Part shown: piece after piece, positions 1 to 47,628 of the stretch
How the letters are laid out: every line of letters starts with the position of its first letter
Numbering within the stretch: position 1 is the stretch's first letter
Origin: Girardia tigrina
Taxonomy: Eukaryota > Platyhelminthes > Tricladida > Dugesiidae
Direction: 5' to 3'
Length of the DNA: 47,628 nucleotides
NCBI GenBank assembly: GCA_001938485.1
Contig: MQRK01224637.1
Span: 10,413 to 58,040, forward strand
Notes under the pieces: model-generated
What the model was told of the DNA's origin: nothing
Seen by the model: only the letters and a program-made list of their open reading frames with translations
Database searches by the model: none
Made by a program: the position numbers and the translations under genes

Positions 1-700
1 CTACATAATTACTCAATATTATGACATCATTGCCTAACCATTGACCTACTTTTTGCATTGTGCACAATCCGTTTTCTGAAATCCGCATTTCATACTTGTA
101 CACCTAATATATATGAAACCCATGTGATATATGTATGTTATTTACCATCAAACAATACCTCATGAATCGCCCAATCTACCTCATCAACAATCACAAGTAC
201 CTTGGTTACCGTAACCAAGATACATAACCTTTTATTTTACTTGTAAAAACTACATGTATAAAACTCCTATTCTACTTAAATGGTTCATTGACATTATACA
301 TAACACCTGCATATACACAAATCATCTAATGTACCTGGGCCTAGGCATCAACCATCAAAAGTACCTAGATTACCGTAACCATGATACATTACCTTTTAAT
401 ATTATATATAAAAACAATCGAAAACACCATAGAAATCATCACCGTTATCTTTAAAACCATGAAAAATACCTTAAAAATCATCGAAAACATGTAAAAACCA
501 CCAAAATTACAGAAAAAAGTGCAAAAATCAATACTGTGTGTGTGGTTTTGAATCCCAAACAATGTTCTTCAATATAAGTTATACAAAACCAAAAATTATT
601 CTTCAAAATAAAATTCCTAATTTTAAAAAGTCTTTATACACTTCATTGATCGAAGGGGATTGTGTAAGGTGGTGCTAAATCTGGACAATACCTTCTAAAA
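1..700. repeat. Degenerate direct repeat in simple-sequence DNA
   Basis: No gene is seen. Two related blocks lie about 164 bases apart: the one around 191-232 and the one around 355-396 both read roughly AAGTACC..GGTTACCGTAACC followed by GATACAT.ACCTTTTA. Each contains the short dyad GTTACCGTAAC or its variant. The rest, including many ATC/ACC-rich short words at 420-540, looks like decayed tandem sequence. The 66-codon frame across the second block is a by-product of that composition and I do not call it a gene. Confidence 0.45.
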
Positions 701-716
701 ACATAGAATTTCCAAT

Positions 717-722
717 TTTATT
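717..722 (-). promoter_or_regulatory. Poly(A) signal AATAAA of the RGK-like gene
   Basis: On the minus strand AATAAA begins 37 bases after the stop codon of the terminal GTPase exon (stop at 759-761). Position and sequence fit a canonical cleavage and polyadenylation signal. In DNA this AT-rich the hexamer is common by chance, so support comes mainly from the exon beside it. Confidence 0.5.
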
Positions 723-758: not shown

Positions 759-974
759 TTACTCAATCAGGTTGCTTGCTGTAAGGTTTGCGTCTACAGC
801 ACCAGATTTATCTAAAGTTCTACCGAACGGAATTAATAATTTTCTTTTCAAATTGATTTTGCTTTGTAGTAAATCAAGAAAATTGAGTGTTTGAGATCTA
901 ACACTTGTTTCAATCAAAATTATTCGACAGATGAACTTCTGATAACACGATTCGCTTCCAAAAACGGTTACCAA
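759..974 (-). CDS. RGK-like small GTPase, terminal exon (G5 motif and C-terminus)
   Basis: This exon would supply strand beta-6, the G5 loop and the last helix of a Ras-superfamily G domain, then a short tail. Seen in the sequence: IETSV, the G5 motif that in RGK proteins normally follows CKF, then a leucine-rich helix (LNFLDLLQSKINLKRK) matching the family's final helix that usually ends QIRLK, then about 27 tail residues and a TAA at 759-761. The proposed acceptor is AAATCAG before TTG at 974, phase 0; it places Gly-6 and Cys-16 close to the spacing seen after the RE of NKxDLxRSRE in vertebrate RGK proteins. Another AG, before AAG at about 938, would give too short a link. RGK proteins bind and inhibit voltage-gated calcium channel beta subunits and affect the cytoskeleton; that role is family knowledge only. 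The helix is divergent (no HNV), so this is the weakest of the three exons. Confidence 0.6.
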   Translation of the reverse strand: MVTVFGSESCYQKFICRIILIETSVRSQTLNFLDLLQSKINLKRKLLIPFGRTLDKSGAVDANLTASNLIE

Positions 975-3007
975 CTGATTTATATACAATCGGTGGTAAA
1001 TTCCGAATGATGTTGATCTTTTTTGGTTTATTGAGGACAAGCCGGTAAAAATTAAACCACTTGAACAAGTTTAGTTTGCAGTTCCACCGAACCTTTCTTT
1101 TCATTTCGCAATTTACCTTGACAGCTACTTTGCCAATGTAATTCTTTCTCAAATAATATTGCAACAATTAAAACTATAAAATATATAAATTTTATTTATT
1201 GCCACATTGTTATTACCACGAAAAAAGATAATGCCAGTCGCCATTGAACATAAATAAATGCCCTGGATGAACATACACCACAAAAATAAATAAAAAAACG
1301 TTATTTTAACATGGCACATGAAACGTTTCTTCAACCTAATATTTCTATAATTTATTTATTTTGTCAGTAAATAAATTTATAATTTTTAACAGATTTTCCT
1401 TATTTATAATTTCTTTAATAAAACTGAACAAAATAATTATGTATTTTATCAATTTGCCTTAAACCCTTTCAGATTTTTAGTAATTATTTTTATTTCACGT
1501 ACTCCACATAATTATTAATTAATCACTTTATTTAAAAAAAATATTTTCGATTTTATTTTTTAACTGTCATCTTCATATAAATTATAATTATTAATAAATT
1601 TTATTATAATAATTGTAATCAAAGATTTTATTAATAATAAAATATTTTTTTAAGAATAATATTTTTTCTTAAATAATTTTAAATTTGCATCAAAAACAAA
1701 TCAAACTGAAACTTTAATTACTTTTACGAGTGCATCAAGTTGTTTGATAAATAAAATTTGATTGTTGTTTTATTATAAACAAATAAATATTTAAAAAGTT
1801 CAAATAATATTTAAGAAAAAAAAAGATATTTTTTGTTTGAAATTATTGTTGATCAATGTAATTACAAAGGCTTGTTTTTAATTTTTTATAAGGTTTGAAA
1901 CCTCAAAGAAATTAGGGCTGACAATCTAGGTCAATTTTATGGTCCCGGGATTACTCGAATTTCTATTGTGTAATCCTTAGATCCTATGTTTTCCTGGGAT
2001 TGGTACCTTTTCGTATGGCTTTCGTTTCGTATAGGAGTTTAGACTATCAGACACCCACTAATCAAACTACCGCTTTTCGTTAAGACGAATAACACTTATT
2101 CAGTAATAAATTTAAGTAAAAAACATTTATTTTAAATACAACACCATAAAATAAATAAATAACATTTATTCAACTTAACATTTAATTTACAAACACATAC
2201 AGTGAAAGCAACGCAATATCAACATTTTGCACTGGCTGGTATCATGACATAATGTACAAAGATTTTTGTAGAAATATATCATAAAGTATGAATATTAAGT
2301 ATTTTGAAATGTTCTGTCTGATAAGGTCCTCTCAAGTTTCAACCCCATTGAAAGTGTTTTTTTGAAACATATATGACTACTACTACTTCTTTCTATTGTG
2401 TTTCTATGTGCACGTTTCTCATAATTAATTTCACTAAATCATGCTACAAAAGCATGTATAAATTCGGTTATGGATTTTTTGGAATATACAGTTTCAGATA
2501 GAAAATATAAGGTATCTTTGAAAAACAGGGGATTTTGATTAAATCATAAATTCCGCTTGGAAAGACAATGCCAAAATGATGAGGATATTTCTAAAATCCA
2601 TACGTAAAACGTTTTGTTTTCTAACAATATTGGGCAGATGGTAGGAAGGCAATGCCTTTGGTAATCCATAAAGGAAAGGATCGAAGTCCTATTTATAAAC
2701 AAAATCGTATCTTGGTTACTACTCAATCAAAATCCTGAGTTAACCAAGAATTAATTATAAAGTGGATCGACCATATTTTTCCATTGATTGATTAAAGCAA
2801 CGGTAAGTGTATTATTTGGGATTCGTGTCGAGTTCATTTAGGTCTACAAGCAAAAGATTTCAACGTAACATTAAAGGTCCTCTCATCATTTCAACGTAAC
2901 AAATCATTTCAGATAACATAGAAAATTTAATCGGTGTATAATTATTCAACAAAACAGTAAGATTGTATTAAAGAGATGAACAAGTTATTGTGCTTATTAA
3001 GAATATT
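975..3007. other. AT-rich start of the 7.2 kb RGK intron, no gene
   Basis: This holds no coding sequence I can support. At 1914-2000 there is a patch with TAGGGCTGACAATC and two TCCYGGGATT words, which resembles the ends of some hAT elements, but no partner end was found. Around 2540-2730 a 60-codon minus frame exists without recognisable content. Confidence 0.4.
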
Positions 3008-3198
3008 AATTGAGTTTCCTTTATATTTATTATTATCACAATTTGAATTGCCACTAGAACAATTCTCCGTAAAACTTGCGTAGCTCGTCATCGCTCTTGA
3101 TTGATAATCTTTAATAATATTCTTTAACGTCTTATTATTCAAACAAATTTAAAATACAATTTAATCAATACAAAAATAATTTATACTTTAAATTATAA
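3008..3198. repeat. Interspersed repeat, copy A
   Basis: The 191 bases here match 47438-47628 with 8 differences by eye (about 96%), same orientation, 44430 bases apart, without gaps. On the minus strand both copies read an open frame starting NKTLKNIIKDYQSR and continuing TENC; five residues differ in the first 45 or so, so nearly all changes alter the protein, which argues against a constrained gene. The copy is followed by AT-rich DNA and, at 3371-3391, by CTTCCATCTGGGTGGGAGAA, a word that recurs in similar form at about 9462-9481. Confidence 0.75.
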
Positions 3199-4232
3199 TT
3201 TAATTATTACAAAAATTATTTATAATTGAAATTTAAAATAATTTTTATTTATTTTAAGAAATTATTATTAAAATATTATTTATGAAATATTAGTTTAATT
3301 TTAAAGTGATTATTTAACTTTTAATAATTGATTAAACAACTCGACGTTTTAAAATATTTAAGATATCAATCTTCCATCTGGGTGGGAGAAATACAATCCT
3401 AAAACAACACACAATAAACACCATTCAAAAATATTCATCACAATGCTGAAAGTAAAAAAGTAAAAATTATCTTTAAGACATTATTATGGCAGTACTTAAA
3501 AATCCTAAACATCATTTTATAAAACTAATTATTGAAAAGATATTTATATTTAATTTTTAATTAATTTTATTTCTTGATTACAAACAAGATGTCCGATCAA
3601 CCCTGAGTTGTCCATGTCGTGGTTTCTTCTGACTGATCTCTTTTACCTCTGGAAAATTTCGATGATTATAATAGTTCTAAAAATCTTTTCTCTAAAAGGC
3701 CAAATAAGAAAGTTCTCAACCAAAAATCCAACATTTCATGGCAGGAAATATCAAATAATGTTATGAAATCAAATTTATTTCAATATCAAGCTTCCCGAAC
3801 GAAATCAAGGAAATTACCTTTAAATTTGGATTTATTTTTTGTGAGAGTATCGTCGCTTTGTGTCTCACAGTGAACTTAAATATCAAAAAAGACGTTAAAA
3901 AATAAATATCATGGTAAATGTTTTTAAAGGGGTTTTCGTATGTCAAATTATTTCAGATAATCGAATAAAGCTTATTGACCTCTTCTTTTCGATGTCAACG
4001 ACTGAAGGCTCAACTATGAATAGTCCCAAGCTTCATTCAAATGATGTAGATAATAAGAAAGATAATCTATTTGAGAGTTCTCATAAAACCCTTGATGAAT
4101 GTTGACGTCGAAATTTTGTGTAAGTTACATGAAGTAGTGTTGTTGAGAGAGAAAATATATTTTTTTATTCAACAATATAAATGTTTTTAGACGGCTCAAA
4201 AATATGTTAAAGAATCATTTTAAATAAATGGT
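3199..4232. other. Intron sequence, no gene recognised
   Basis: AT-rich DNA. A 64-codon plus frame at 3911-4105 has a natural-looking end (residues NNPKLHSNDVDNKKDN approximate the middle part) but no recognisable domain and no splice context I trust. Confidence 0.35.
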
Positions 4233-4523
4233 TCACGTAATCCGAGATTGAAACAGGGCATTATCGCCCTGAACAATAGTAGAAATCAATGTCTTGATTT
4301 TATTGTATAAATTCGATTTTCTCCCTTTCTTTTTAATAATTTCTTCGTTTGACAAATCAGAAATTATTTTATTAGATAAGGTTCTAATAGTACTCGACAA
4401 TGTAAGGTTCTAAATCGACAACAACTCTGAAATAGTTTTATCAGTACAACCATTATTTAGTTGTTCCCGAATTATTCTTAATATGCCATTTGTCATGAGA
4501 ATTATTGGTTTTCTGCGAGCCAT
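4233..4523 (-). pseudogene. Helix-turn-helix transposase remnant, Tc1/mariner-type N-terminus
   Basis: A 97-codon minus frame starts at ATG 4523 and carries one internal stop, TAG at 4410-4412. The first part has a small helix-turn-helix look: MARRKPI, then a helix with REQLNNG, then CTDKTISELLSI. After the stop comes a recognition-helix-like stretch, then KKKGRKSNLYNKIKTL and STIVQGDNALFQ, which matches the layout of Tc1/mariner DNA-binding regions, where a basic GRxxKL linker is followed by a second helix-turn-helix ending in a D-N-x-L-T-Q motif. No DDE catalytic part was seen on the low-coordinate side, so this looks like the first quarter of a dead transposase. It could instead be a domesticated DNA-binding exon, but the stop argues against that. 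Confidence 0.5.
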
Positions 4524-7500
4524 AACTGTGGAATTTAAACTTTCTATGTGATATACTTATTTAGAATTTGAATTAATTACAAATTGTAAATCAATCAGAT
4601 CAAACAAGCAACCAAAACAAATAAAAATACCTTTTATACTTTTTTTTCTTTCCAGAATTTCTTTTCAGATGTATTTATATCTCATGTTTTGAAGATGTGA
4701 ATTTATTTTGAATAAAAAGATTTATATTGTTGAATAAAAAATATATATTATGGATAAAAAAAATTATATTTTGGAATAACACTGTAATTAATATAATTTT
4801 GCCAAATTTACGGGAATTTGTATTTGCATTAAATGGTTGTGGATTTTCGAGACGATATGATGAACTTTGTCCTACGAGGAAAATGATAAAACGGAAAGAA
4901 AAAAAAACATTCGAAGATTTATATTGAATTAAATGGAGTTTCAATTGCGCTCACTTTGCGAACACAAGGCAAAAAAATTTTATTTATAATTAAAAATATG
5001 AAATCAGAACAAATATTAAATCAAATTTTTATAATTTAAATACAAAATATTGATTGCCAACCATACATTAGGAAATATTTAAGTTAAATACCAGTATAAC
5101 GTTGCAAAACAAATCTTGAACCGGCAAATAAATCAAATATGCCAGAGACTATCGTCCAAAATTCGCGATTCTCAATTACAATTTTACAATTAAATTTTCT
5201 AGTTTATTTTATCAATATTATTTGATTTACAGGACCTGATCTTTAGGACGTAGTTTTTCCAGACTTTTTCCCATCAGTATTTCTCGAAATTAGATTTATA
5301 ATAAATCGTATTTTACCATTGAAAAATACCTACTGAGTTCTTCATAAACTAACCTTTTTCAAAAATTTATCTAAATCCTATATAAAGGAACGAATGTGTA
5401 ATAATTTCGTGCTGCTTTATATTCTGTTGATTTCATAAATATAAATGCTCAGTGTTGGGAACGATCATAAAATATAAAATTTTTGAATCTTATCAAATTA
5501 TTAAATAAACAATTACATTCCGTAAAATATTGTTATAAAAATGTTAAAATAATATTTTCAGAAATTTAATGTAAAAAAAATTAATTTAAGTAGGAAATAA
5601 AATAAATTTTACGGTAGGGTTATTAAAAGATTTATGTAAAGATTTATTATAAAGTAAAAAAAGTTAATTTCAAATTTGATGAAAATATTTATTTGAAATA
5701 AAATAAAAAGTAATATAAGTTTGATATTTTATTTGCGAAATAAAAGTAAACTAAACCATTTTGGTAACTTAAATCAAAGTAACTTAAAAATGTGGTTATA
5801 ATTTTTTTGGAAAATGTAATTATAATTTTTGGAAATTAAAATTGGAATTAAAAAATAATTGTAAATCCATTAACTCGACTTAAATAAAAAATGCGATTTT
5901 AATTTTTTTTCGGAAAATGTAATTGAGAAACAGGTAAATTTAAATGTACCATAAAATTGAAAAATTAATAAAAGACGCAACAAAATCTTTGTGACAAAAT
6001 TTTAATTTACTATAATTTTTTATTAAAGAAAAATAGAATTTTAATTTGTAAAAAAATATACTAACGATATTTTTATTTATATCTATTTTTATTTATATTG
6101 GTTGTGTAAAAGAGAAAGTACAAAAGTTCCTCAAAAATATTTGTTTAAAAAATTCAAATTGTTATAGAAATAAATTTTTGTGTTCATGATAATGTCTTTT
6201 GATCGAGAACCCAATACTCAGTAAATAATCATGCAATTAGTAATCATTTGAAAATTATTCATTAAATGTTCTCTAAGAATATAAATAAACTTTATATATA
6301 ACTCAATATCAAATATGTATGTTAAAGATATAATGTTGACACTAAAAATGTTGAGATTGATGGTTGTTAGACATTGATATTTCAGACTTAGTTCAGCAGA
6401 ACAATCTTCTCTTCGACTACCAGATTATAAAAAAACTTGGTAGTAACATTGAGTGACTGTGGTTAACTATCGCCTGATTAACTGTCATCAATATTTCAAG
6501 CATCATTTGGTAGTTCAAAAATGTCATAACATTTAAAAGAACACCCTCTCATTTTCCAAAGCCAGATCATCAAAATTCTTATCAGCACCCTGAGTACTTT
6601 TATTTTAACTATCAATGATCGACTGTCAGCAATATATTTCTACTTATCTCTTATGTATATCAACACTCAATTAAACTAAAACGACACTTAAATCTCAGGA
6701 AAATTTTACTTTTTAAAATTCAGTACCAGAAACAACTGAATAAATCAACAATTCTAACGAATTTATAGTAATTTGTTTCACAAAAAAATACAATAAGTTC
6801 AAAATCACAGAACAATAAAATCATATCAATAATAAGTATTTCAATCATTTAATCTTTATGATCATATTTTCATTTCAGATCCACAACGACAAAATGTAAA
6901 ATCAATTAATCTTATTAATTAATTCATATTATAAGTATGATATGATGTCTATTAATTACATGATCGTTGCTTCTTTAAATAAGCCACAGAATTGATGTTA
7001 ATTTTTGTCTAAATATTGTAGGTTATCCATCGAGATGAATAACTAAAACAAGTTATACATATATACGAGTATATAATATAGTATACTATCTTAGTGCATA
7101 TCGTGACCTGACGATGAGATTATTATTATCTCGAAACACGCCGTCTTATTTTTATCCCTTTTATATAGATTTTACTGTACAATGTTTATATTCTGACGAT
7201 AAAAACAATTATTTTTTGAACAACTTGGAAAGAACAAAGAAATTCAAAACAAAATGTATTTTGTCGGTGTGTGATTGTTTTGCATTGGTCAAATGTGTTA
7301 TTATGCTGAATATCACCAGTCTCAAACCGGTACAATTGAGAGAACACAACGTTCTCTCAGATTTCCTTTTGGTCAGGCATTTCAGTCAAATTTCATCGAT
7401 GAGATTTCAGATTGTTTTTGATTTGATGGGAAGGCTAAAATTGAGTTCGATGCATTGATTGTGAGGTGTTTCATCTCAAAGATTAGCTTTTTGTGTGCTG

Positions 7501-7692
7501 TTAGTTGTCATCTTTATCTTAAGTCTCCGTTACCTTGTAAAGTACGGAACGATAGAGAAAACATATCGTTTTCTCAAATGGAAATTGATAGCTGCCAATG
7601 GTTGGTTTGCGAGAATGAGATTGATTGCATTTAGTGCAATTTGCTTAATTTTAAGGAAAAGTGATAAAAATATTTTAATCCAATAATTTATT

Positions 7693-7694
<2 letters not shown>
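4524..7694. other. Intron sequence, no gene recognised
   Basis: Mostly AT-rich. The stretch 7085-7680 is less AT-rich and holds two open plus frames (7114-7458 and 7495-7686) with no recognisable motif. I could not place them in a transposon family either. On the minus strand at about 5086-5183 there is a short frame with FWTIVSGIFDLFAG that I also do not recognise. Confidence 0.35.

Positions 7695-7734
<40 letters not shown>
7695..7734. repeat. (AT)20 microsatellite
   Basis: Forty uninterrupted bases of alternating A and T, seen directly, inside the 7.2 kb GTPase intron about 430 bases from the middle exon. Confidence 0.95.
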
Positions 7735-7737
<3 letters not shown>

Positions 7738-8163
7738 AATACAATTTTATTCGAGCACTAAAAAGATCTGTTAATTGATTCATGTATTGTCATCAAAATG
7801 AGCACGTATGAAATGTTTCAGCTTAATTGAGCATTGGGAAGTGGATACGAAATCAATTACAAGATTTACACCAGACATACAGATAGATGAAGCTTATTTA
7901 AAATTATGTAATAATAAAATTTTAAAATCGAGTTCAAAGTTCTGATTGTAAAAATAATTTGCCAATATTTTTAGAAATTTTAATAATTATCTTAAATCCT
8001 TGAGAATTATCAGCCCAAGGAAAATTGAATGATCACAAAACATGACTGATTGATCATTTTTCCTTAGTGAACTTTATTCTAACGAACAATATTTATAATT
8101 TATTGTATTAATAATATAATTATTAGTCTTCAAATATAATTCTGAAATACCTTTAGACTTCAC

Positions 8164-8334
8164 TTCTCTGCTTCTCTCAAGATCCGCTTTATTTCCAACT
8201 AAATACACTGCTCTTGTCGTATCAACCTTTTTAAAAATATCATTGAGAATTTGTTTGGAATACTCGAAGGATGATAAATCATCAATGGAAAACAGAACTA
8301 TATAAGCATTCATTCTATCCAATAACTCTACTCT
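8164..8334 (-). CDS. RGK-like small GTPase, middle exon (G4 motif)
   Basis: This exon supplies the core after switch 2. It begins RVELLDRMNAYIVLFSIDD, matching beta-4 of RGK proteins (xAYVIVYSxxDRxSFE), continues SSFEYSKQILNDIF (helix 3) and RAVYLVGNKADLERSRE, where NKAD is the G4 guanine-specificity motif and the DLxRSRE ending is typical of the RGK branch rather than Ras or Rab. Acceptor: ATTTTTACAG before AGA at 8334. Donor: GAA|GTGAAG after 8164 keeps phase 0 with the terminal exon. A second possible donor, AAAG|GTATTT after 8151, adds VKSK plus one base, and keeps the conserved Val of SREV, but its phase fits no acceptor I found downstream. There is no stop or frameshift. The exon is 57 codons, phase 0 at both ends. 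Confidence 0.8.
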
Positions 8335-8761
8335 CTGTAAAAATAATAATTTTATTATTATTTGAAATTAAATTCATAAAATATTCTTTCACGCTTCTCT
8401 AATTAAATCTAAAAAAAGAACTTATGTGATTTTTTTCATAAATTAACAAAAAAATACAAAGCAATAATTTTCATTTTGCTTGAAACAAAAAAATTAGAAA
8501 GGCATTTTTTCTAAATGTATTTAGTTGTCTCTCGAAAATAATATATAATTCGACGCATTAATTACACATTACCGTTTTTTTATAGTTAAATTTCCCATTG
8601 ATTATTTCCCGTTTCATTTTCCTTTCTTCGTTCTCGGACAAACATAATATTTCATTTACATTTTGTAACCTATATTTTCTTTATGCTTTATTTATAAAAA
8701 GAATTTCTTTTTAATTTTAGAATTACTTTCAAGAGAATAATACACACTATTCAGGAAATAT

Positions 8762-10322
8762 ACATCGCCCTCGCAAAAGTATCCGAGCACTAATTGGTTG
8801 AACATAACAAAAGACAAAAAATCGAACAATTCACCGTGTTTTCTCATTAAAAATAGTTTTCCTTCAATACAGTATAGTTCATAGAGATCTTTTAAAAAAT
8901 ATAGGTCTAACTGAAACTAGCGTGGCATCAGGATTGGCTCCAATTTAAGTGATGATCTAAGAGTCCTTTGTGAGGAACACCTCAAAAACAGCAGACACAA
9001 TACGCTCATTCAAAACGAGTGGAAATGATTCTTCTCTACAGGGAATGGCCTTCCTCACTCTCTTTCCAGTATATTAAGAACATTTAGACAAGTCGCGTTT
9101 GAACTTTTATTACAATCACATTTAGAGTCATTATGACTCTTAGAAAGTCTTTCATCGTTTGTCATCATTCTAATTGGTTTTCTTATTTTTTATTTTTAAT
9201 CACGATTATTCGAACAATTTTTCTAAGTCATTTATTTAAATATATTACTTAATTAAAAATAATAAATTTTACCATTTCTCAATAAATCCCAAAATAATAA
9301 AAATGTTATCAAATTATTAAAAATGAATTTAATTAAAATTTTACCAAAAAAATATTAAACTTAATTTTAATTGTGAAATTAAAAATATGAACTTATAAAA
9401 TTTATTTTTTAATTATGTTCAAATAGTCAATCACTTTAAATTTAAATAAAAAAAACCAATTTCCATCTTGGTGGGAGAATCACCATTCTAAATTCAACAT
9501 ACTTAAATCAACATACAGTATCAATACATTTACACATTCAAACAATTTAAAATATTCCTCACACAGTAGAAGGACAAGTAACTTAAAGAGGCTAGTGAAG
9601 GGAAACAGAAATACTTTCGTCACCAAAACTACTTCTCTATTCGCCACACCTCCAATCTCCAAGTGGATCATAACGAGATATCTGCATGAAATTGGTCAAT
9701 ATGAATAAATTGCAAGAAAAGTGTGCTCAAGTCGTTTTGCCTGACATGTCACTTTTAATTTTATTTAAATTAGATGGTCGATTATGTTTTTGACGACAAA
9801 CAGAAGAGCGGTGTTACACTGACGGTCAAGTATGTTCAGATCACATTTATTTCAATAAACATTAGTGTACAGAATTTAAGTTTTATGACGTTTTTTTTCA
9901 CGTAACTATTGTAAAACACAGTGGATGGTCGATGATGGTGTGAGTTTGATTTACCCAAAAGCCAATTGGAACCACTGCTTTTGAATCCCGAAAGAGTCAA
10001 TAGCCAGGAATATTTCAAAATTTGGAGAATAGTGTCATTCCAATTTGACCCGAGGGGAATGCAACGATATTTTTTGTTGAGATTAAAGAAATTCCGTAAA
10101 TTCTATGAGTACCTCTAATCCCCGACGTCAACAAAATAGAGAAGATGTATGACGAGCTAGAGAAGCCAGTAGAAAAAAAAGAAAACTATCCCTATGACGC
10201 TCGTTTTTCTGAGGCATTATGTGCAAGAAGAGTGGACCTCAATCTCAAAAGAATTTATGCCCATTATTGTAAATATCATGTCTGAGAAAGTTTCTGAGAT
10301 TATAAAATATCACGCATATTGA
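8762..10322 (+). pseudogene. Decayed Tc1-like DNA transposon
   Basis: The left part starts at TA followed by CATCGCCCTCGCAAAAGTAT (8764-8783), a Tc1-style terminal sequence. Around 8929-9060 a frame gives GSNLSDDLRVLCEEHLKNSR, like the first paired-type helix-turn-helix. From about 9569 the transposase resumes: KTTSLFATPPISKW, ITRYLHEIGQY and IARKV give the second helix-turn-helix, SMMV at about 9930 is the remnant of GGSVMVWG, and the end EEWTSISKEFMPIIV plus SEKVSEIIK matches Tc1 C-termini, stopping at 10320-10322. Reading moves among all three frames with several stops, so it is long dead. About 400 bases of AT-rich sequence (9160-9560) split the two helix-turn-helix parts and carry the TTCCATCTTGGTGGGAGAAT word also seen near 3371, so a second repeat probably inserted here. 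The right TIR was not found. Confidence 0.7.
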
Positions 10323-10536
10323 ATTCATGAAAATAAGTTGTCATTTCATTGTTAAGCTTTCTGTTGCTTCATAGAAAATAGTTATTCAATACTTAAAAAA
10401 CGATAGTTGTATAATTTTAAAACGTTTGACGAATATTTTCCATTTAGTTTTTACATTACATAATTTTTAGAAATATTTCCATTTTTTCTTTCATCTTTTT
10501 AAATATTTTTTATCCAATGAACTTTTTAATAGATTA
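10323..10536. other. AT-rich spacer
   Basis: AT-rich sequence between the Tc1 fossil and the MULE fragment. No feature is visible; it may contain the unrecognised right end of the Tc1 element. Confidence 0.4.
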
Positions 10537-11334
10537 TTGGGCGTACTACAATTCATACTCAAATTTTACAAACTTCAGGCTAATTTTACAAAATTAGCGC
10601 TAATTTTGCAATTTTTACAAACATATTTTTTACAATTTTTTACGCTAAATGGAAATTACAATAAAAATGAAAATTTTAATCAAAAAAACTTAAATATACC
10701 TTCATGTATAGAATTTATTAAAAATATCAACGATAAAAGAATAAAGAAGAATAAAAATTGGTATGAGGGTGCACATATTTTTGCTCCGTCGACAAATAAT
10801 GCGTTGGAATCTTTTAATAACGTAATAAAAACGTTGTATTTCAAAGGAAGAACAATACATATGCTAGAGTTTATTGACACTGCTAATAATATTCTACAAA
10901 ATTACACAACTAAGAAAGCAGCATGTAATTTATTTTGTGAACTAACTGACATCAACCTTGATTATTATCAAAACATTAATTCAGCCCATCAATATCAAAT
11001 TTATAGTTTTTCGGCTTGTGAAAAAAAATTGGTGATAGAAACATAAACTATTCGAATTTTTTAATGCTAAAAGCATAAATGAACTTTAAAATCTCTATTT
11101 CAGGTATTTTTTGTGTTTACTTGGTCGGAATTAGCGTCCGTATACGATGTATTGTGCACTTGTTGTACTTTTGTGAAGCTTAAACAGTGTCAGCATGTCT
11201 GATACGTATTGCATTTGAAAAAGAAATTGAATTTTTTGATTGAACCGATAACCGAAAAGACAAAAAAAGGAAGACCTCAAATCATTCGTAATACGACGAA
11301 TTGGAAATATTTTGATACAAAAAATTTAAAATGA
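10537..11334 (+). pseudogene. MULE (Mutator-like) transposase fragment with SWIM zinc finger
   Basis: An open frame from 10537 to a TAA at 11044-11046 (169 codons, opening with TTG, so the N-terminus is missing) contains NWYEGAHIFAPSTNNALESF, matching the conserved WYEG...PSTNNALEsfN block of MULE transposases; the E of NALE is probably the third catalytic acid. The same reading frame reopens at 11101 and shows CTC followed by eight residues and CQH, a C-x-C-x8-C-x-H SWIM finger, then EPITEKTKKGRPQ, like the basic GRP tail of insect and nematode MULE proteins, ending TGA at 11332-11334. Between the two lies a stop-rich 54 bases that ends in CTCTATTTCAG, which looks like a splice acceptor, so part of the gap may be an intron; one further TGA follows the finger. 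The two upstream catalytic D residues lie in sequence not found here. A dead 3' fragment is the best reading. Confidence 0.72.
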
Positions 11335-13786: not shown

Positions 13787-15843
13787 TTAAAAAAAAACAC
13801 GGTACCGTGTTACACGGCGTAAATTAAAACATGGAAGAGTTTTCGTGTTATCTATAGCAAATCGAACACATTTTATTGATTTCATGTATTTCTTCTGGAA
13901 GTGATTGCAAGAGACTGAAGTATATCCAGTATGTACCTTTAATAAAATAGAAAAATATATACGTACAGTACTTAGAGAATGATACTTAGAGTTAGAATGA
14001 TACTTAGGCAAACATAGTTTGTATAGCCAAATTTCTGTCAGTAAATTGTTGACGCTGCGTTCAGCGTCCACAGAATTCACAGGCACACACAAGTAGCGAT
14101 AGGCTAACTGGGAGAGTTGTGGAAAACGATCGGCATAGATACACCAATAGGACAATGGGGATACGTCGGTGGCCACTTCATGCAAAGCAGCTGTGTAACC
14201 TGGCAGCTCTGAGAGTGCGATAACGTTGTCTTGGAGAGATGGAATAGCCTCCACAAACCCATCTAATGAAAGTGCTTTGGCCTGCTGAGGGTCAAAGAGG
14301 CGAACTGCTTTGAAGAAGACTAGGCCTTGCTGATGGAATGTTGGACCTCTCACACCAACGGGAGCAAGAGAGTAATACTGCTCCAAGCGACTAGCAGTGT
14401 CTTCAAAGGCTTATGCATGCTCATGGGGGATTGTGGGATCAAGTGACTTATGTAAAGCCCAAGTAAGTAGATCCATCACGCGATTGTAAGCTTTGTGAGC
14501 ATTCACCTGCCTGGTTTCAAACCACGTAAGCAAATCGATAACTGCTTTGGTGTAACTGCAATCGATAACTGCAATGAATTTGACATCACGAATGACATCT
14601 TTATTCTCGAAAAGTCTCGATAGTTCATCCAATGCGTTGGTAGGGTGTGAACTATCAACTTCAAATGTGATGAATTGAGGGTGAAAATTCACGTATTTGG
14701 CATGATGTTCGACTGTGGCAAACCAGCTTCCCCAGCGAGTAGTGACGGGAAGTGGTGGTAGTGCGATTTCACTTGCGCCAATCATCTGTTGTAAGAAGGT
14801 CTTGTAGGAATGTTTCCTGGCTGTACAATGGGAGAAAATCCTCTTGAAAGAAGCAACGAGTCTGTCCACTTTGGGGAAATTCTTGCGCCACGTTTCACCA
14901 ACAAGATTTCTTATGTGGACATTGCAAGTAATATGCACACAATTGGGCAGTAGACCTTATAGATTCCCATATGCTTTGGTCATATAAGAAGCATTGTCAG
15001 TCACAAAAGAACACACATTGTTGAACTCCACGCCGTATTTATTCAAACACTGAATCTTGGCCTGGGAAACTGTTGTTGCATTTACCACTTCCAGGTAGAC
15101 AATATCAACACACAACGCCTCCAATGCAGATTTTTCCAAAGAGGGCATTGAATTTGTAGATGAAATTTGGGGAATGAAGAGGATATGAAGAATGTAACGA
15201 TCCTGGGAATCACTGGCTTCACCTGTCACAATGCTAATTGAGGGAGCAAAGGACACTTTAGCACGTAGTTTCTCAAGGAGCACTTCCAGCACCTTCGGTA
15301 GGTAGTCATGGCGCAACACTGTGGCAGTGGGTAGTAGTCCCACGTTTCTAACGTTAGCCTGCAAGTCAATAAAGAGTTTAAAGTGAGAAAAGTCTTACGA
15401 ATGGATCTAGGGATGATCTCTCTTCTTACCTGTAAGTATCCAAGCAGTTTTGGATGATCGAGTTTGTTCAGAGGGATATCTGAAAGCGTGAAAGCTTCCA
15501 CTAACTCAAAAATGTCAACATTGAGAGAATCTCGAACTTCTGTTTGTCTGTTGAAAGCCGAAACAATAGTGCACTGCCTTTTCAAAGGTAAATCTACATG
15601 TTCCTCTGCTACCATTCTCTTTTTGGAGTGCAGCGGAGTTTCCAAATGTCGATCGATGGTTCCCTTGCGAGTGTGATCCAAGGTAACATTGCAGGCAGTG
15701 CAAAACAATTTATCTCCATCTGCATGTAAAGTTCCTGGAGGGTACAGCTTAGCGCGATCAATCCAGCTGATATTCACAGCTTTTTTAGACGGTTTCGATA
15801 AATTGTTGTTGAATTTCAATCTCTTTCTGTCGGAATTTTTCAA
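13787..15843 (-). pseudogene. hAT transposase gene, CGGBP1-like BED finger, one intron, nearly whole
   Basis: The element cut and pasted itself using an RNase-H-fold transposase. Exon 1 (15843-15430) has a zinc finger with FCTACN, then DRHLETPLH (C-x2-C...H-x5-H), very like human CGGBP1, itself derived from a hAT finger. A 71-base intron (15429-15359; donor CAG|GTAAGA, acceptor CTTGCAG) joins in phase 0 to exon 2, which carries VTDNASYM (the catalytic region), NCVHITCNVHIRNL, TTRWGSW (the conserved R-W), and FPQLSQLAYRYLCVP followed by NSVDAERSVNN, the C-terminal hAT dimerisation block. Exon 2 stays in one frame but has two in-frame TAA codons at 14957-14959 and 14411-14413. The reading opens with TTG after an upstream TGA, so the start codon is lost or lies elsewhere. 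G+C is clearly higher than around it. With so few breaks it is young. TIRs were not found. Confidence 0.85.
15359..15429 (-). other. Spliceosomal intron inside the hAT transposase
   Basis: Seventy-one bases begin GTAAGAAGAG and end TTGACTTGCAG on the minus strand. Removing them joins LLGYLQ to ANVRNVG in frame; leaving them in shifts the frame. Donor and acceptor both match metazoan consensus. Confidence 0.8.
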
Positions 15844-15924
15844 TCATTTTTCAACAAAAATTGATTATTGTCCAAAACAATTCATATTATATATTTTTTT
15901 GAGATAACTCTTACAAAATACAAA

Positions 15925-16507
15925 AAAAATTAAATTATTTTTAATGGAATTTAATTCAAATTGTTCATTATGGTTAATTAAAATATTTTGATCTTTGAAA
16001 GCTTTGCTAAATTTTCGTTGACCAGAAAAGCATTGATTGAAACAGGCTGTGCAGTCAGATAATCTGGCCTCGTAGAAATCATTCTCATTTACTGTTCGTT
16101 GAGGTTGAAATTTCTAATTATCCATCAAAATCTTTTTCGAACTCTCCAAACTATCAAGTTCCTATTTCTGATTAGATAAAATTTGAATCGGTCTTATTCC
16201 TTTTTAACGGGAAATAATTTAATTCAGGCTCGAAAAAATCTTCATTTAAAAACAATTGTTTCAATGGATATTTTTCAAGTTCGTTATTTGGAGGATTATG
16301 TTTTTAATTATTAATCAAACGGGGATGCATAGACAAATTCGCTATAGTAGTGTTTTTGAACATGTAATAGTTACGTTTATTATCGAATAATTCATATAAT
16401 TCTTTTTCGGTAATATAATTCATAGGGTTTTGTGTCTCGACCGAGTGATCTTTAAAATTGAAGTCCAATAAACACAAGATTAACGGCATTCTAATATTTA
16501 AAGTCAT
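15925..16507 (-). pseudogene. Unidentified decayed coding stretch
   Basis: A frame from ATG 16507 to TAA at 16304-16306 encodes 67 residues including DHSVETQNPMNYITEKELY and NTTIANLSMHPRLINN. Straight after the stop the same frame runs on for about 43 more codons (HNPPNNELEKYPLKQLF, NEDFFEPELNYFPLKRN) before a second stop. Then another frame continues with ELDSLESSKKILMDN, a stop, and KFQPQRTVNENDFY, LSDCTACFNQCFSGQRKF. Amino-acid make-up throughout is protein-like and unlike random AT-rich translation, and the pieces follow one another on one strand, so I read this as one decayed gene with at least three breaks, or as exons with introns I cannot place. I do not recognise the family. It directly precedes the hAT gene on the same strand but has no hAT motif. 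Confidence 0.45.
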
Positions 16508-17148
16508 TTAAGAAATTTGATTCATACAAAAGTCGCATGATAAATTAATCAATATTCAAACATATCCCTTCAACACGGGACCAAAAGTATATCCAATAAT
16601 AATAATATTAGTCAACAATGAAATTTACAAGGCAGTATCATCACAAAGTCGTTCTATTTTAACATTTCCGCTTTAATGAGTATATCATGTCGAAGACTCG
16701 TCAGTGAAAATGTAAAGGACCGTGTTTCTAGACTTCATGCATTTAGATAGGAATTCGCATTTATGTTCTTATTTTGAAAATGAATTGTTGTTTTGTTTCT
16801 AGAAACAAGTGAGAATCGCGCTTTCTTTGCATTCTAATATATGTAGTGTCATCTATTAGACTTTTTAAAAACTATTACTATGTATAAAATTTAAATTGGG
16901 TAAAAGAGATAACTGTATTTTAATTTTTCAAATATGTTGCCATATGGCAAAAATGGGCTGGCAAGGGTTAATGAAAATCGAATCGACAATTATTATAAAT
17001 AGACCAGCTGAAAATCATTGGAATTGTTTAAACAATGATATTTTATCTATTTTTTGTTGATTATTTTATTATTAAATAATTGAATGTAAATGGTTTAAAA
17101 AATTATGTTGATTTTAAAATAAAAAAAAAATTGTAAAAAGAAATCAGT
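16508..17148. other. No gene recognised
   Basis: AT-rich intron sequence with scattered mixed-composition words (16560-16860). I see no repeat ends, open frame or motif. Confidence 0.4.
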
Positions 17149-17382
17149 TTGCATTGTTCTCGGCCGGGTCCACCGACATTTCTCAGATTTGAAGAAGAGA
17201 AAAAGATGGTCGTACGAGCGGCAAGCAAAATGACGATGAATGTTGATCGAATGGGTCAGATTCTTTTTCATTCTCCCTTCCCTCGTCCCAGAGTCTTCAC
17301 ATCCCCATCACCAAAGCATTATGATCGCGACCACTCTGCGCCTACTCTCGTACCAACATACACTATGAATAGGGAAAGATGA
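17149..17382 (+). other. Orphan higher-GC open frame, 77 codons
   Basis: About 230 bases near 48% G+C sit in DNA near 25%. The plus frame ends TGA at 17380-17382 and reads HCSRPGPPTFLRFEEEKK, MVVRAASKMTMNVDRMGQ, FHSPFPRPRVFTSPSPKHY and TMNRER. It opens with TTG just after AAATCAG, which could be a splice acceptor. I recognise no domain; it is arginine- and proline-rich. Neither other plus frame nor any minus frame stays open as long. It could be an exon of a gene nested in the GTPase intron, or a decayed transposon piece. Confidence 0.3.
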
Positions 17383-19254
17383 GTGCTGACGTTTTTAGAT
17401 AACTTATAACCGATTTAGGCATATCGATAAGAATATTATTAAAATTCGTACCGCAGGATTTTCAGTGGTGATTCGGATGGACGTACGTGAAAAATGGTAC
17501 ATTCCTATAAATCTTGGTATCCATTATCCTCCAGATTCCTAATCAAATCAAACGTTCTCTTAATTATTCAGACAAATCTTGATGTATTGTAGAAAATAAG
17601 TTTTTATAGCAAGTTTATGTTTAATCATAAATAGTATTCCCTTGAAAATACTATCAATATTGCAAGTTTCTAATTAATAATTTAATATTTTTTTGCAGAA
17701 AATATAAAATATTCATCAATTAATCTTAAGTTTTTTCGCGTTTATATCGATTATCTTTTGTCGAGGTTAATGAGTTTATTAATTTAATTATAGAAATTCT
17801 AAGAAATCAGAACAAAAAGACCGATTGAAGGATCAGAATTAAATTTAAAATATTTTAAACGGTTAAAAAAATAAAAAATAATTTTCAAAATTCTGAAAAA
17901 TTTAAATGCAACTTTTAAAAATATAAATAAATTTTTTATATCAATGAGAAAGCAAAATGAAGTGGTTAATGAGGAATGAATCAATCGCCAATTTGATTAA
18001 ATAAACCATAAATTTGGATAAAATTTACAAATGACTCTCAAATTATTCTAATTTTATTTGAGACTCATTTGATTAAATTTTAAAAGATACGAAAGTAATT
18101 AATGAGACAAACGAAAAATATAAATAAAAAATATTTTGTTCAAAATAAATTTTTTTAAAAATATTAATAATTAAAAAAAATTTATTTCAGTTAATATTGA
18201 ATAATATTATTGTTTTTAAATATTATTTTGTAAGGTACTTTTAATAAAAAATTGAAAGTATTTTATACTAATAATTTAATTAAATAAATAATGACTCAAA
18301 ATCTCGAGAATTGTCAATAACTAACTGACTTGTCTAAGAAATATCGGGGAGAAAACCTAAGGGAAACGGATAGACCTTTATAAGGCTCCTTCCTAATTGA
18401 CTGTGAACGAATAGTTGAAGATATCTGATGACAAATACACATTCGAATTGAATATTTTATAAAAACCGAACATGTTCACCATAAATAAATTTTGATGGAG
18501 GGATTTATAAAACAGATAACATTTGGGGAAGGGCTCTTATTTTTAGAGAAAGTAAAGGAGATAGAAATGAGAAGAGCTCAAAAATAAATACTAGATTAAA
18601 TTGAAATGATTTATTTTTCCTCTTTACAAAATGTTATTGTACACAACAAAACTACTAATTATTTTGTTCATTGAAGTGTTAGTTTCTGAAATCAAACAGA
18701 TTATCAGAAAGTATATTTGATAAATTTACGGCGTATTTCAGTCATGAAATCGCGAGTCCATTCTTGTCCACAACTGTACATTTTAATCCTTTATCAAAAT
18801 ACTCCCATTACAATATATTTTAGCAAACTTTTTTCGAAATCTCTAAAAATTCGTTGAATATCTAAAACATTTATAACATAGAACATTGTGAATGTGAATT
18901 CGATATTAAGGATAAGAAATTAAGTAAATGTTTTTTTTTGGAAAATATTTGGTTTATGCATAAGTTCTTGTTGTTTTATTTGCTGCAATGAAAACAAAAC
19001 AGCTTCATAGTTTTTGTTTGATGGAACCTTTTATTGATCATTTTTATTATTTCTATTTAAATTATTTCAGTCTCACCTTAACTTTCATTGCCAAGTAGAT
19101 AAAAATGAATATTTTAGGCACCCCCTTTGCCATTTTAATCAACATTTAAACGCAACACGAAACGCCAGCATTATTTGTTACGTTAGTGGAGAAAAGAGAG
19201 CTTGTGATCCCAAAATTGTTTTTGAAATTTAAAAAGGAACATTTTTTTATTTTA
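17383..19254. other. No gene recognised
   Basis: AT-rich DNA with mixed patches at 17400-17560, 18300-18570 and 19080-19240. The patch at 18325-18430 reads TDLSKKYRGENLRETDRPL on the plus strand before a stop, too short to assign. Confidence 0.35.
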
Positions 19255-20045
19255 AACAATGCACCTTAGTCATGCCGATTTTGATGAAAACTACTTTGAC
19301 CAACTGATTCATGATGATCAGTACCAATCGACGTTAGGACAGGCCATATATAGTGATAATACAGTTGTTTCTTGAAATCTCGAAAAAATGGAAAAGTCAA
19401 AATCTCGGAAAAGGGTACTTTACTTTCTAAAAGAAAGTCACAAACCAGTGGGGATTTATTCGCGAGTCAACAATGTGCTGTGTAACATCATAAATTTTTT
19501 CTTTTTCAAATTGTTACTTGTAACAAAAAATGGTGACAATAAGCAAATTTGAAAAAAGAAAGCTCCGGTTAGTCATCAAAGGCAACCATAACCACATCCT
19601 AAACATTAAGGAAATCAATCCAAATTTTTTTCTGTGTTTGCTTGGACCCAAATGATGTTATTCATTACTAAATTCTACCAAGAAACCGAACGGTCCTTGC
19701 TGAAATTTATTGTGAACAACTCAAGTGTGTAAATATAGCGATTAAAGTGACGAGGACTAATAAGAAGCAAATAATTTAACAGAATTGCAATGCTCGATCT
19801 CATGTCGCAAGAATGACAAAGTTGGCTATTGATGAGCTTGATTGGAAAGATCTTTCCATGTCCAATATATCCCCGATTTAACACCAAAGATTATCATCTT
19901 TAGTGCTCCATGTCGAACCATCTTTCTGGTCATATATTTTAACACTCAGCAATAACAACGAGAATTTTTCTACCAAAAAATGTGGAATTTCCAAACTACC
20001 AAAACGATGGAAAGCAATGATGGATTGTGGTGAAGAATGGTCCAA
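19255..20045 (+). pseudogene. Strongly decayed mariner transposase
   Basis: Parts in order on the plus strand: ADFDENYFDQLIHDDQYQS then NTVVS, matching the mariner second helix-turn-helix (DFDEDHLKxLIExxP...TTV); KKKAPVSHQRQP around 19555; VCLDPNDVIHY and LPRNRTVLAEIYCEQL, matching VWWDWKGVVYYELL...YCQQL; then NARSHVARMT, DELDWKDL and ISPDLTPKDYHL. The second catalytic D of QDNARPH has been replaced (QNCNARSH), while the third (SPDL) remains. Reading changes frame and meets many stops, so it is old, clearly older than the mariner at 21236-22662 and from a different lineage. TIRs were not recognised; the right end runs into the inverted-repeat element that starts at 20048. Confidence 0.7.
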
Positions 20046-20047
20046 GC

Positions 20048-20623
20048 CAATTGGTCGGGACACAATTTGTTGGCGACAATTGGTTGAGGTGACAATTACT
20101 CATGAATTTATGATTGGAAGACAATTATAATGAATAAGGACAAAAAAATTTATTAATGTAATTATTTTATTTAAAAATTAATTATTAAATAGAATTTATT
20201 AATTTTTATTATTAATTTTTAATTAACTTGTTAAATATATATTTATATATATGGAATCAAAAAAAATTTATACAATTCGGCGATCATATATCTTGCTGAT
20301 CAGTTATCGACCATAATAAATTGTCATTTTGAATAAATTATCTATCCTATATCCCCCTACTATTTGTCGCACCTACCAAAACGGTTATAGATTTTTTTAG
20401 AAAAAAAAGATTGCTTAAATGTTACAGCAACTAAATAAATAATTAAATATAATTATTTCCACAATTAGTCTTCTTTTTTTATTATGGTACATACGTTTTT
20501 ATGGAAACTCATTTGAGATTCTATGTATTGTCAGAAGAAAATAATCTTTTTGTACGCTCCGAAGATCATATATCTTGCAAAAAAAATTAAAAAATCCCCG
20601 ACAAATTGTATCCCGACCAATTG
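20048..20623. mobile_element. Inverted-repeat element (MITE-like), 576 bp
   Basis: The left end reads CAATTGGTCGGGACACAATT and the right end, read on the minus strand, CAATTGGTCGGGATACAATT; the match extends to about 27 bases with two mismatches. No coding region lies inside. GATCATATATCTTGC occurs twice within, near 20283 and 20566, and there are AT-rich runs. No clear target duplication flanks the ends (AGC at left, ACG at right), and no TA pair is present, so the family is open. It abuts the decayed mariner. Confidence 0.6.
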
Positions 20624-21233
20624 ACGTGTTCCCGGTGGAGAATACCTCATCGATTGAAATTTAATTTTTTAAGATAAATTTGATATATTTATCTGCTGAA
20701 AATAATTCTAATAAATTCATTTTATTATCTAAAATTTTTTACATGCTTTTCATTCGTGATCAGTAAAGCTTTATAATAATTGTAAAAAGACTCGCACGAA
20801 CCTATACACCAATGCAAAATAATTCTAAGATATATTTCGATTTTTTCTTACCTCATAATGAGCAATTATAAATATACAAAAATTATTAAAACAAATTCCT
20901 GAGAAATAATTTTCTTTTACTTATTAAAAATTTATATCTTTTAATTCAGATGGAGAAGAATCGTATTTTATAAAATTTTACACTAAAAATATTTTAAGCA
21001 AACAGAATAAGACACCTAAAACTTGGAAAATATTAATTTAATAAGCTCAGTTTAAGAGGTCAAACCCTCATTAAAGAACTCTCTTTGATAAATATTTATC
21101 GTAAAGATGAAGATTAAAAGGATTAGACTTGTTTGGAATGCATCTAGAATTAGGAGAAAAAAGCTATAGATAATTATATTTTCTGCGGCATGACAAGATT
21201 CCAATTTCAGAAAATTTGGTTGTTGACGACATA
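20624..21233. other. No gene recognised
   Basis: AT-rich intron sequence between two transposons. An 81-codon minus frame at 21052-21297 overlaps the mariner end and has no recognisable content. Confidence 0.4.
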
Positions 21234-21235
21234 TA

Positions 21236-22662
21236 TTAGGTGTATAACTTAGTTTTTTGGATTTTCTAAGAGATGATGTAACCTTTGTAATAAGCATTAT
21301 TTTACAGTCGTACGTACAGATTTTTAAAGTGCTGAAATCGAGGCATTAAAATTAAGTAGGTCATTGACCTTAAATGCGTCATAAACATATTTTTAATCAC
21401 GTTTTAGCATGACAACTTTCATATCAACAAAACAGCATTTGTGGGAAGCACTACCGTTTTACTTTAATCAAAAGAAAAAAGCTGCAGACAGTTTTCGGCT
21501 TCTTGAAGAAACTTATGGTCAACATGCACCAACTTAACAGACTTGCGAGAACTGGTATAAACGTTTCAAAAGTGGAGATTTCAACGAAAGTAACAAAGAG
21601 CGTTCCGGTCAACCAAAAAGATTCCAAGATGAAGATTTGGAATCATTACTGAAGTTAGATTCTACTCAAACAGAGAAAGAGCTTGCAAAACAGTTAAATG
21701 TTACTCAAGCAGCCATAAGTAAACGTCTACATGCTATGAAAATGATTCAAAAAGAAGGAAAATGGATACCACGTGNNNNNNNNNNNNNNNNNNNNNNNNN
21801 NNNNNNNNNNNNNNNNNNNNNNNNNNNNNNNNNNNNNNNNNNNNNNNNNNNNNNNNNNNNNNNNNNNNNNNNNNNNNNNNNNNNNNNNNNNNNNNNNNNN
21901 NNNNNNNNNNNNNNNNNNNNNNNNNNNNNNNNNNNNNNNNNNNNNNNNNNNNNNNNNNNNNNNNNNNNNNNNNNNNNNNNNNNNNNNNNNNNNNNNNNNN
22001 NNNNNNNNNNNNNNNNNNNNNNNNNNNNNNNNNNNNNNNNNNNNNNNNNNNNNNNNNNNNNNNNNNNNNNNNNNNNNNNNNNNNNNNNNNNNNNNNNNNN
22101 NNCATTCATGGAAGCAAGGTTATGTTGTGCATTTGGTGGGATCAGAAAGGTGTACTGTACTATGAGCTGCTGAATTTGAATGAAACTGTTAATGCAGAAC
22201 GTTACCAACAACAGTTAATGAGATTGAATGATGCATTGAAGGAAAAATGTCCTATTCCAGCCAACAAACAGCGCACAGTGATTTTGCTCCATGACAACGC
22301 TCGGCCACATGTCGCTAAACAAGTAGAAAACACGTTGGAAGCACTTAAATGGGAAATTCTACTGCATGCTGCCTATTCACTAGATTGTGCCCCATCAGAT
22401 TATCATCTGTTCCGATCAATGCAAAGCGCTCTTCGGAACCAGCACTTTAGAAACCAAGAACATATAAAAAAATGACTGGAACAATGGATCGCATCAAAAG
22501 ACCAAAACTTTTTTTTCGATGGAATTCATAATTTGCCTGAAAGATGGTCGAAAGTCATAATTAACGATGGAAAATATTTTGATTAGAATAAAACTTATTA
22601 TGTCATCTAAATAAACTTGTCTGTTCTGCAAAAAAATCCAAAAAACTATGTCATACACCTAA
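21236..22662 (+). mobile_element. Mariner element with both TIRs, interrupted by an assembly gap
   Basis: Left TIR TTAGGTGTATAACTTAGTTT and right TIR (minus strand) TTAGGTGTATGACATAGTTT agree over about 30 bases with few mismatches; each end abuts TA (21234-21235 and 22663-22664), the mariner target duplication. The transposase frame runs from ATG 21409 to TAG 22584-22586. Before the gap it shows NWYKRFKSGDF and TQAAISKRLHAM, the DNA-binding half; after it MLCIWWDQKGVLYYELL, LLHDNARPHVA (second D), HAAYSLDCAPSDYHLF (third D of D,D34D) and LPERWSKVIINDGKYFD. The first catalytic D falls in the gap. Breaks seen are TAA at 21535-21537 and TGA at 22473-22475, the latter where the family has Trp. 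The sequence resembles the Mos1 lineage. It cannot make a full protein as read, but is young compared with the other mariner. Confidence 0.92.
21776..22102. other. Assembly gap (327 N) inside the mariner element
   Basis: A run of 327 undetermined bases. Judged against Mos1, the missing transposase part should be about 200-220 bases, and the frames on the two sides do not agree if 327 is taken literally. The stated length is therefore probably an estimate, or extra sequence is inserted. Confidence 0.95.
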
Positions 22663-22664
22663 TA

Positions 22665-23103
22665 ACTTTATGACATTTAGTCATTCATTTTTCAGTCTTA
22701 TTTTCAAGGAAAAAGATTTTTTTGTCAGAAATATATTTGAAAGATTTAAACAAAATATTTACTAATAAGGATGTTGTTCTTAATGAAATAGTTTAATTAA
22801 AAATATTTTATTATTATAATTCTTTTGTAAAAAAATTAGTTTAGACACCAAAAATACGTTTTAGGTCAAATTTTTATATTTCATTTTTTGTGTTTGTTTT
22901 ACTGCATCAATTGCGGTTTTTATTTGTGTTAATTATGAGTAATAAATGAAATTCTTTGAAATTGGTTATTTGTGAATTATCAATTCGAATTTAAAACTAT
23001 TTCTGAATGTCAGTCAATATAAATTGTAATATATTTGAAATCGATATTAATACAGAAAAATGGATTTTTATTAAAACAATCTGATTAACAAAATAATAAA
23101 TGA
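22665..23103. other. No gene recognised
   Basis: AT-rich intron sequence to the right of the mariner element; no open frame, repeat end or motif seen. Confidence 0.45.
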
Positions 23104-23418
23104 CAAAATAAATTCTGTATTTTAAGAGAAAATTATATATTGTTGTACAAAGGAGACGAAGGACCTAAAAGGAAAAGGTTTAAATATTTCATTTTAATAC
23201 CTCATGGTGTTATTTATTTAAATGACTGTTTCATGCGAGAAATCGTGGACAGCAGCCAGTGTTGTTTCATAATCGAGAATATCACCTTCCAATCAAATTC
23301 GAAAACCGGCTATTCGAACAGATTGGTTGAAATAAGTATCAGCCGACAGGCTAAGATTCACTTTTGCTCTGTCGTTCCTTACGTAGAATGTGCTAAGAGA
23401 ATTAATATTCATCTATAA
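23104..23418 (+). other. Orphan open frame, about 104 codons, candidate exon
   Basis: The frame is open from 23104 to TAA at 23416-23418. Its most protein-like part reads KGDEGPKRKRFKYFILIPHG, NDCFMREIVDSSQCCF, NITFQSNSKTGYSNRLVEI and SVVPYVECAKRINIHL. The first ATG lies within it (CFM). Base composition is more mixed than its flanks. I see no known domain and no clear splice sites, and the strand is opposite to the GTPase. It could be an exon of a nested gene, or transposon debris. Confidence 0.25.
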
Positions 23419-24046
23419 ATTGAAATATATGGCTTTAATGCGATATACAATTACTTTTCCAGTCATCAAGGTTGCATAATAAGAATAATAACTAAAAGAC
23501 GAAGTCCATGAGTTATTTATGAATAGTTTGATTAAGTATGAACAATTTCCTATGAAGCATCACTTATCTCTTATTTAATGGTTCATGAAGAAGTTTCATA
23601 TATGTGATGAAATATTCAAAATTAAAATAAAGAATATATGTATAAATTGACGAATTTTAATTTCCAAATTTCAGGGACCTGAAAAATTGAATTTAGTTTT
23701 CTTATCTGCTTCTCCTTCAGAGGGAATCTATTCATCAAGAGGAATTATATACTTAAAACAATTTACATAAATGCAAAATTTTTCTAATAAGTAAATAGTC
23801 AGGAAAGAAACTAAATGAAGTGGAAATAATTGAAATTTTAAAAATACATTTGTTTCTGAAATCAAGAATTTTTTCTCGTATTTAAAACGAAATATTTTTG
23901 CTGCATATTTATAAGTCAAAGAAAACAGAAAAAAAGAAGCTCGAAATAATAATTACTGTCTAGATTGTAGGAAGGAGATTATCCTGATAATTTATATTTT
24001 TGAAAATGTAAAATTATTATGAATAATTAAAATATATAAATCTCAC
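23419..24046. other. Intron sequence, no gene
   Basis: AT-rich DNA at the start of the 15.7 kb GTPase intron. The donor GTGAGA sits at its right edge (24046-24041, minus strand). Confidence 0.5.
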
Positions 24047-24153
24047 CACTTCATTTACAGAGTCCAAACTCATATTGCAAGTATCGTGCAATAAAATGTT
24101 CCATTCTTTTCCATCGATTCGAAAAGAAAATAATTTTTCCTGTTCTTCATTTA
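24047..24153 (-). CDS. RGK-like small GTPase, beta-2/beta-3 exon
   Basis: The exon reads, after two bases completing a split codon, NEEQEKLFSFRIDGKEWNIL then LHDTCNMSLDSVNEV. This aligns with RGK beta-2 and beta-3: xEFGEKTVSVLLDGEExxLxFxDxx. The D-T of HDT sits where Ras proteins carry DxxG; RGK proteins are known to lack the usual G3 and to have DTWE or DIWE-like sequence, so the absence of DTAGQE supports the family rather than decay. Acceptor: a poly(T) run then TAG before TA at 24153 (phase 1). Donor: GTG|GTGAGA after 24047 (phase 0), which matches the phase-0 acceptor of the next exon 15.7 kb away, giving NEV|RVELLDRMNAY. The preceding exon, expected to hold GxxGVGKS, was searched for by eye on the minus strand to the end of the window and not found. 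Confidence 0.75.
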
Positions 24154-47437: not shown

Positions 47438-47628
47438 AATTGAGTTTCCTTTACATTTATTATTATCACAATTTGAATTGTCACTACAACAATTCTCCGT
47501 AAAACTTGTGTAGCTCGTCATCGTTCTTGATTGATAATCTTTAATAATATTCTTCAACGTCTTATTATTCAAACAAATTTAAAATACAATTTAATCATTA
47601 CAAAAATAATTTATACTTTAAATTATAA
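47438..47628. repeat. Interspersed repeat, copy B, cut by the window edge
   Basis: Matches 3008-3198 in the same orientation with eight differences, six of them transitions. Similarity starts near the word AATTGAGTTTCC and is still running at the last base, so the full repeat is longer than 191 bases. Confidence 0.75.

Follow-up and report, generated by a model that had tools for sequence, protein, structure and literature searches.

The window analysed here, a stretch of 47,628 nucleotides, is eukaryotic-type DNA with a G+C content of ~27% in which several transposon classes are present as remains. Three exons on its minus strand would together form part of a highly divergent RGK-related small GTPase gene, a reading that their sequence makes somewhat more probable than all others taken together. 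The candidate gene, from its upstream exon to the end of its last exon in the window, has the following parts:

24047..24153, minus strand: upstream exon, covering beta-2/beta-3, with an aspartate but no DxxG (FRIDGKEWNILLHDTCN); the frame is open, the acceptor strong and the donor GTGAGA; the weakest of the three exons
8335..24046, minus strand: putative intron of 15.7 kb, holding a Rac-like fragment besides remains of hAT and mariner elements
8164..8334, minus strand: middle exon, covering beta-4 to G4 (AYIVLFS...VGNKADLERSRE); matches Pfam Ras, with RAD, REM1 and GEM as top matches in the PDB
975..8163, minus strand: putative intron of 7.2 kb, in which no transposon protein was recognised
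759..974, minus strand: last exon in the window, with G5 (IETSV), an alpha-5-like segment and a stop codon at 759-761; placed by an end-to-end alignment test
717..722, minus strand: candidate poly(A) signal AATAAA, read from the sequence

The exon boundaries carry AG/GT; the acceptors are, in order, TTTTTTTTAG, TTTTTACAG and AAATCAG, and the donors are GTGAGA and GTGAAG. The entry into exon 24153-24047 is in phase 1; at each of the two inner joins the phase is 0. When joined, the three exons give 163 codons with zero stops, whereas the probability of 163 open codons by chance at the local composition is ~7e-7. All three exons also display the coding-type excess of purines and of G at the first codon position. 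Re-reading the sequence confirmed the exon coordinates, open frames, splice dinucleotides, 0/0 phases and absence of stops given in the original prediction. These exon signals and the open spliced frame are direct observations, and splicing of the gene is predicted from them. The prediction had also placed a poly(A) signal after the last exon; AATAAA is indeed present at 722-717, but it is weak evidence because that strand has such a hexamer every 240 bases or so.

Family placement of the middle and joined exons

The middle exon (8334-8164) alone matched the Pfam Ras profile (PF00071) with 33.3 bits (E 4.4e-8), and the joined exons reached 41.1 bits; the curated cut-off is 21.6 bits, which places both in the Ras superfamily. 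When an RGK profile was compared with 2,659 six-frame fragments, the middle exon was the sole significant match (E 1.5e-8). Judged by its sequence, this exon is certainly a Ras-superfamily segment. No relatives of it were found among viral contigs.

Other continuations of the middle exon were rejected. Straight read-through of its donor to the stop at 8074 was no better than random (P 0.14-0.34). An alternative downstream donor (AAAG/GTATTT, phase 1) gave partner peptides that were short and chance-like, and the best of these, ending in VFDCFYI, sits inside a 21-base tandem repeat.

Against the PDB, the joined exons matched REM1 with 37, RAD with 35 and GEM with 34 bits, followed by Rheb (25 bits), Rit1 and DiRas (24 bits each) and REM2 (23 bits). 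The seven top PDB sequences were all REM1, RAD or GEM, with a lead of ~9 bits or more over the best other GTPase. A better score against another GTPase family had been named as counting against the original assignment, and in this search RGK leads the rest (REM1 37 versus Rheb 25 bits); that RGK is the nearest family is an observed result. In a maximum-likelihood tree built, like the profile, on provisional reference sequences (human RGK, other Ras proteins and two arthropod RGK proteins), the joined sequence groups with RGK with support of 96/97; its branch is very long, at 2.65 changes per column. Stretches of the human REM1 and RAD references agree with the PDB alignments, and the arthropod RGK references are provisional.

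It is very improbable that the exons come from a different Ras subfamily (e.g. a divergent Rheb-like or Rit-like member) and resemble RGK because a few residues have converged. The middle exon alone would allow such an assignment: its best PDB matches, RAD, REM1 and GEM, score 22-24.5 bits and Rheb ~20.5-21 bits, a lead for RGK of just ~2-4 bits. However, the lead widens to 9-12 bits once the exons are joined, the tree groups the sequence with RGK, and the joined exons combine DG(K/E)E...D lacking DxxG with DLxRSRE after NKAD.

Membership of the outer exons

The outer exons, each alone or joined without the middle exon, gave zero GTPase matches. Added to the middle exon, the upstream exon raised the local RGK profile score by 3.8 to 5.4 bits, depending on the donor, and the downstream exon raised it by 7.8 bits, gains that random candidate exons matched. 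Both results are what would be seen if the middle exon alone were a real GTPase segment, the outer two matching by chance and its genuine neighbours being located elsewhere. We regard this as quite unlikely, and it is the end-to-end and splice-aware tests that speak against it.

In the end-to-end test, a candidate exon must align fully with the RGK segment expected from its position. Here, exon 974-759 scored 18, the top of 22 downstream candidates, while the next independent one scored below 0; among 13,207 candidates drawn from shuffled windows, just 1 reached 18. Membership of this exon is therefore strongly backed by its alignment with RGK. Its acceptor is weak, with pyrimidines at 7 of 14 positions.

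Exon 24153-24047 was likewise the top candidate, in its case among 231 upstream candidates on the minus strand, with a score that was equalled in 39 of 160 shuffled windows and that is not significant without splice criteria. With two further requirements, a donor of the form GTRAG and an acceptor rich in pyrimidines, this exon alone scored positive, and 600 shuffled windows yielded no such candidate. Because these criteria were picked post hoc, once the site had been seen, the splice-aware result is supportive, not conclusive. We continue to favour a single RGK-related gene comprising all three exons.

Intron contents and the P-loop half

The introns had been described as packed with transposons. 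This is overstated: one dead hAT and one mariner account for ~3.5 kb of the 15.7 kb intron, and the 7.2 kb intron gave no recognisable transposon protein. The recognisable elements in the window are:

13787-15843, minus strand: broken hAT transposase (Pfam Dimer_Tnp_hAT, E 9e-11)
21234-22664: mariner element whose inverted repeats, 32 bases long, are 94% complementary
27422-28504, minus strand: Ty3/gypsy-like RT-RNase H fragment, upstream of the first exon
39003-39305, plus strand: LINE-like reverse transcriptase fragment, upstream of the first exon

The hAT remains contain in-frame stops at 14411-14413 and 14957-14959. Their G+C content is ~41%, against 27% in the surroundings, and they may have arrived recently from a genome that differs in composition. 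Approximately 370 bases in the middle of the mariner element are given as N. The two reverse transcriptase pieces would be intronic only if the gene extends past the window. At the window edge (88-107, minus strand) there is a lone sequence resembling a mariner end, TTAGGTGTACAAGTATGAAA, which may belong to the end of a further element of mariner type. A dispersed repeat of 205 bases occurs at 2994-3198 and, 44 kb away, at 47424-47628, where the copy runs off the window end; the two are 95% identical.

No fitting G1 P-loop exon (GxxGxGKS) for this gene was found in the window, the 23.5 kb upstream of the first exon included. The P-loop half of the gene may lie beyond the window, which would put the P-loop and switch I exons more than 23 kb upstream.

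Inside the 15.7 kb intron, at 13421-13585 on the minus strand, we observed a Rac-like GTPase fragment of ~50 codons (GDRAVGKTC...KPMNLGL) that the original prediction had not mentioned. Over 46 positions it shares 59% identity with Rac1; it has two in-frame deletions and a stop codon at a conserved Trp, and no further Rac exons were found within the window. From its sequence it is probably a piece of a Rac pseudogene. Its P-loop, at 13.5 kb, was considered as an exon of the RGK-related gene and ruled out because the fragment is Rac-like (42 bits) and carries the stop, while the middle exon scores only 5 bits against Rac.

RGK hallmarks and predicted biochemistry

The translated exons do show NKAD, RSRE and IETSV and do lack DxxG, as had been claimed. 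The G3 of the upstream exon reads DTCN, neither DxxG nor DXWE; RGK proteins depart from DxxG at G3, and the DXWE of vertebrates is not conserved outside them (PMC4081519). In mouse Gem, the CaV-beta contacts are R196, V223 and the nearly invariant H225, and the C-terminal C-7 motif of RGK proteins carries an invariant cysteine (PMC4081519). Here, the R196 equivalent is kept as the arginine in NKADLER; equivalents of H225 and V223 are absent, and the last exon has no histidine at all. The C-7 cysteine is also absent, the tail ending TASNLIE with no cysteine, and the start of the published C-7 motif has no match in the six frames of the window. A further C-terminal exon may lie past the window edge. 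Of the claim that the gene is RGK-type, the affinity stands (PDB lead, tree support of 96/97) but several family-defining residues are missing, and for this reason the gene is either a diverged relative or a copy in decay.

Decay would mean that an RGK duplicate has become a pseudogene: what remains of its exons is still free of stops, but it has already lost the C-terminus and the contacts to CaV-beta, and perhaps also the half with the P-loop. The missing C-7 and contact residues fit this account, as do the long tree branch, the lack of a P-loop exon in the window and the presence of a second, broken GTPase fragment in the same 15.7 kb intron. However, the splice sites are intact and the 163 codons have stayed free of stops despite the large divergence, which speaks for constraint during most of the sequence's history; the pseudogene is possible but less likely.

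We favour instead the proposal that the three exons encode the C-terminal two-thirds, from beta-2 onwards, of a strongly diverged RGK-related GTPase, in what would be an animal with an AT-rich genome. The protein, if made, would most likely use an ordinary G4/G5 pocket (NKAD, ETS) to bind guanine nucleotide. RGK proteins have been proposed not to use the usual GTP-hydrolysis switch, and without DxxG this protein would not be expected to use it. The known mode of holding CaV-beta is probably lost, because the contact histidine and valine/isoleucine are gone. The gene could thus be a fast-evolving RGK relative with a possibly changed partner; its expression and function are predicted from sequence. 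A more specific version, in which a functional RGK paralogue has kept its nucleotide pocket, lost the CaV-beta contacts and C-7 tail and no longer targets calcium channels, is possible, if doubtful.

If expressed, the gene would provide a naturally occurring relative of RGK proteins that lacks the residues believed to hold CaV-beta. Such a protein could reveal RGK activities independent of the calcium channel, a question raised previously (PMC4081519). As matters stand, it adds another long-intron gene to the divergent small GTPases.

The RGK proteins (Rad, Gem/Kir, Rem1 and Rem2, with RGK-like protostome homologues such as Drosophila Rgk1-3) score highest of the solved families when all three exons are taken together, with identity of at most ~31%. 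Rad, Gem and Rem proteins are calcium-channel regulators, and inhibition of high-voltage-activated calcium current is one of several criteria for RGK. Rheb, which ranks next among PDB families on the middle exon (beta-4 through G4), is ~9-12 bits weaker than RGK over the joined exons and keeps DxxG, which this gene does not. RGK proteins lack DxxG after the G3 aspartate as this gene does, and the two also share NKAD followed by DLxRSRE, the arginine of Gem R196 type and an ETS(A/V) G5. In contrast, the C-7 cysteine motif, H225, V223 and the vertebrate DXWE are RGK features missing here, and this gene has a two-residue insertion before G5 and a shorter tail. Since it resembles RGK proteins most but fails two of the tested features, it is best named RGK-related.
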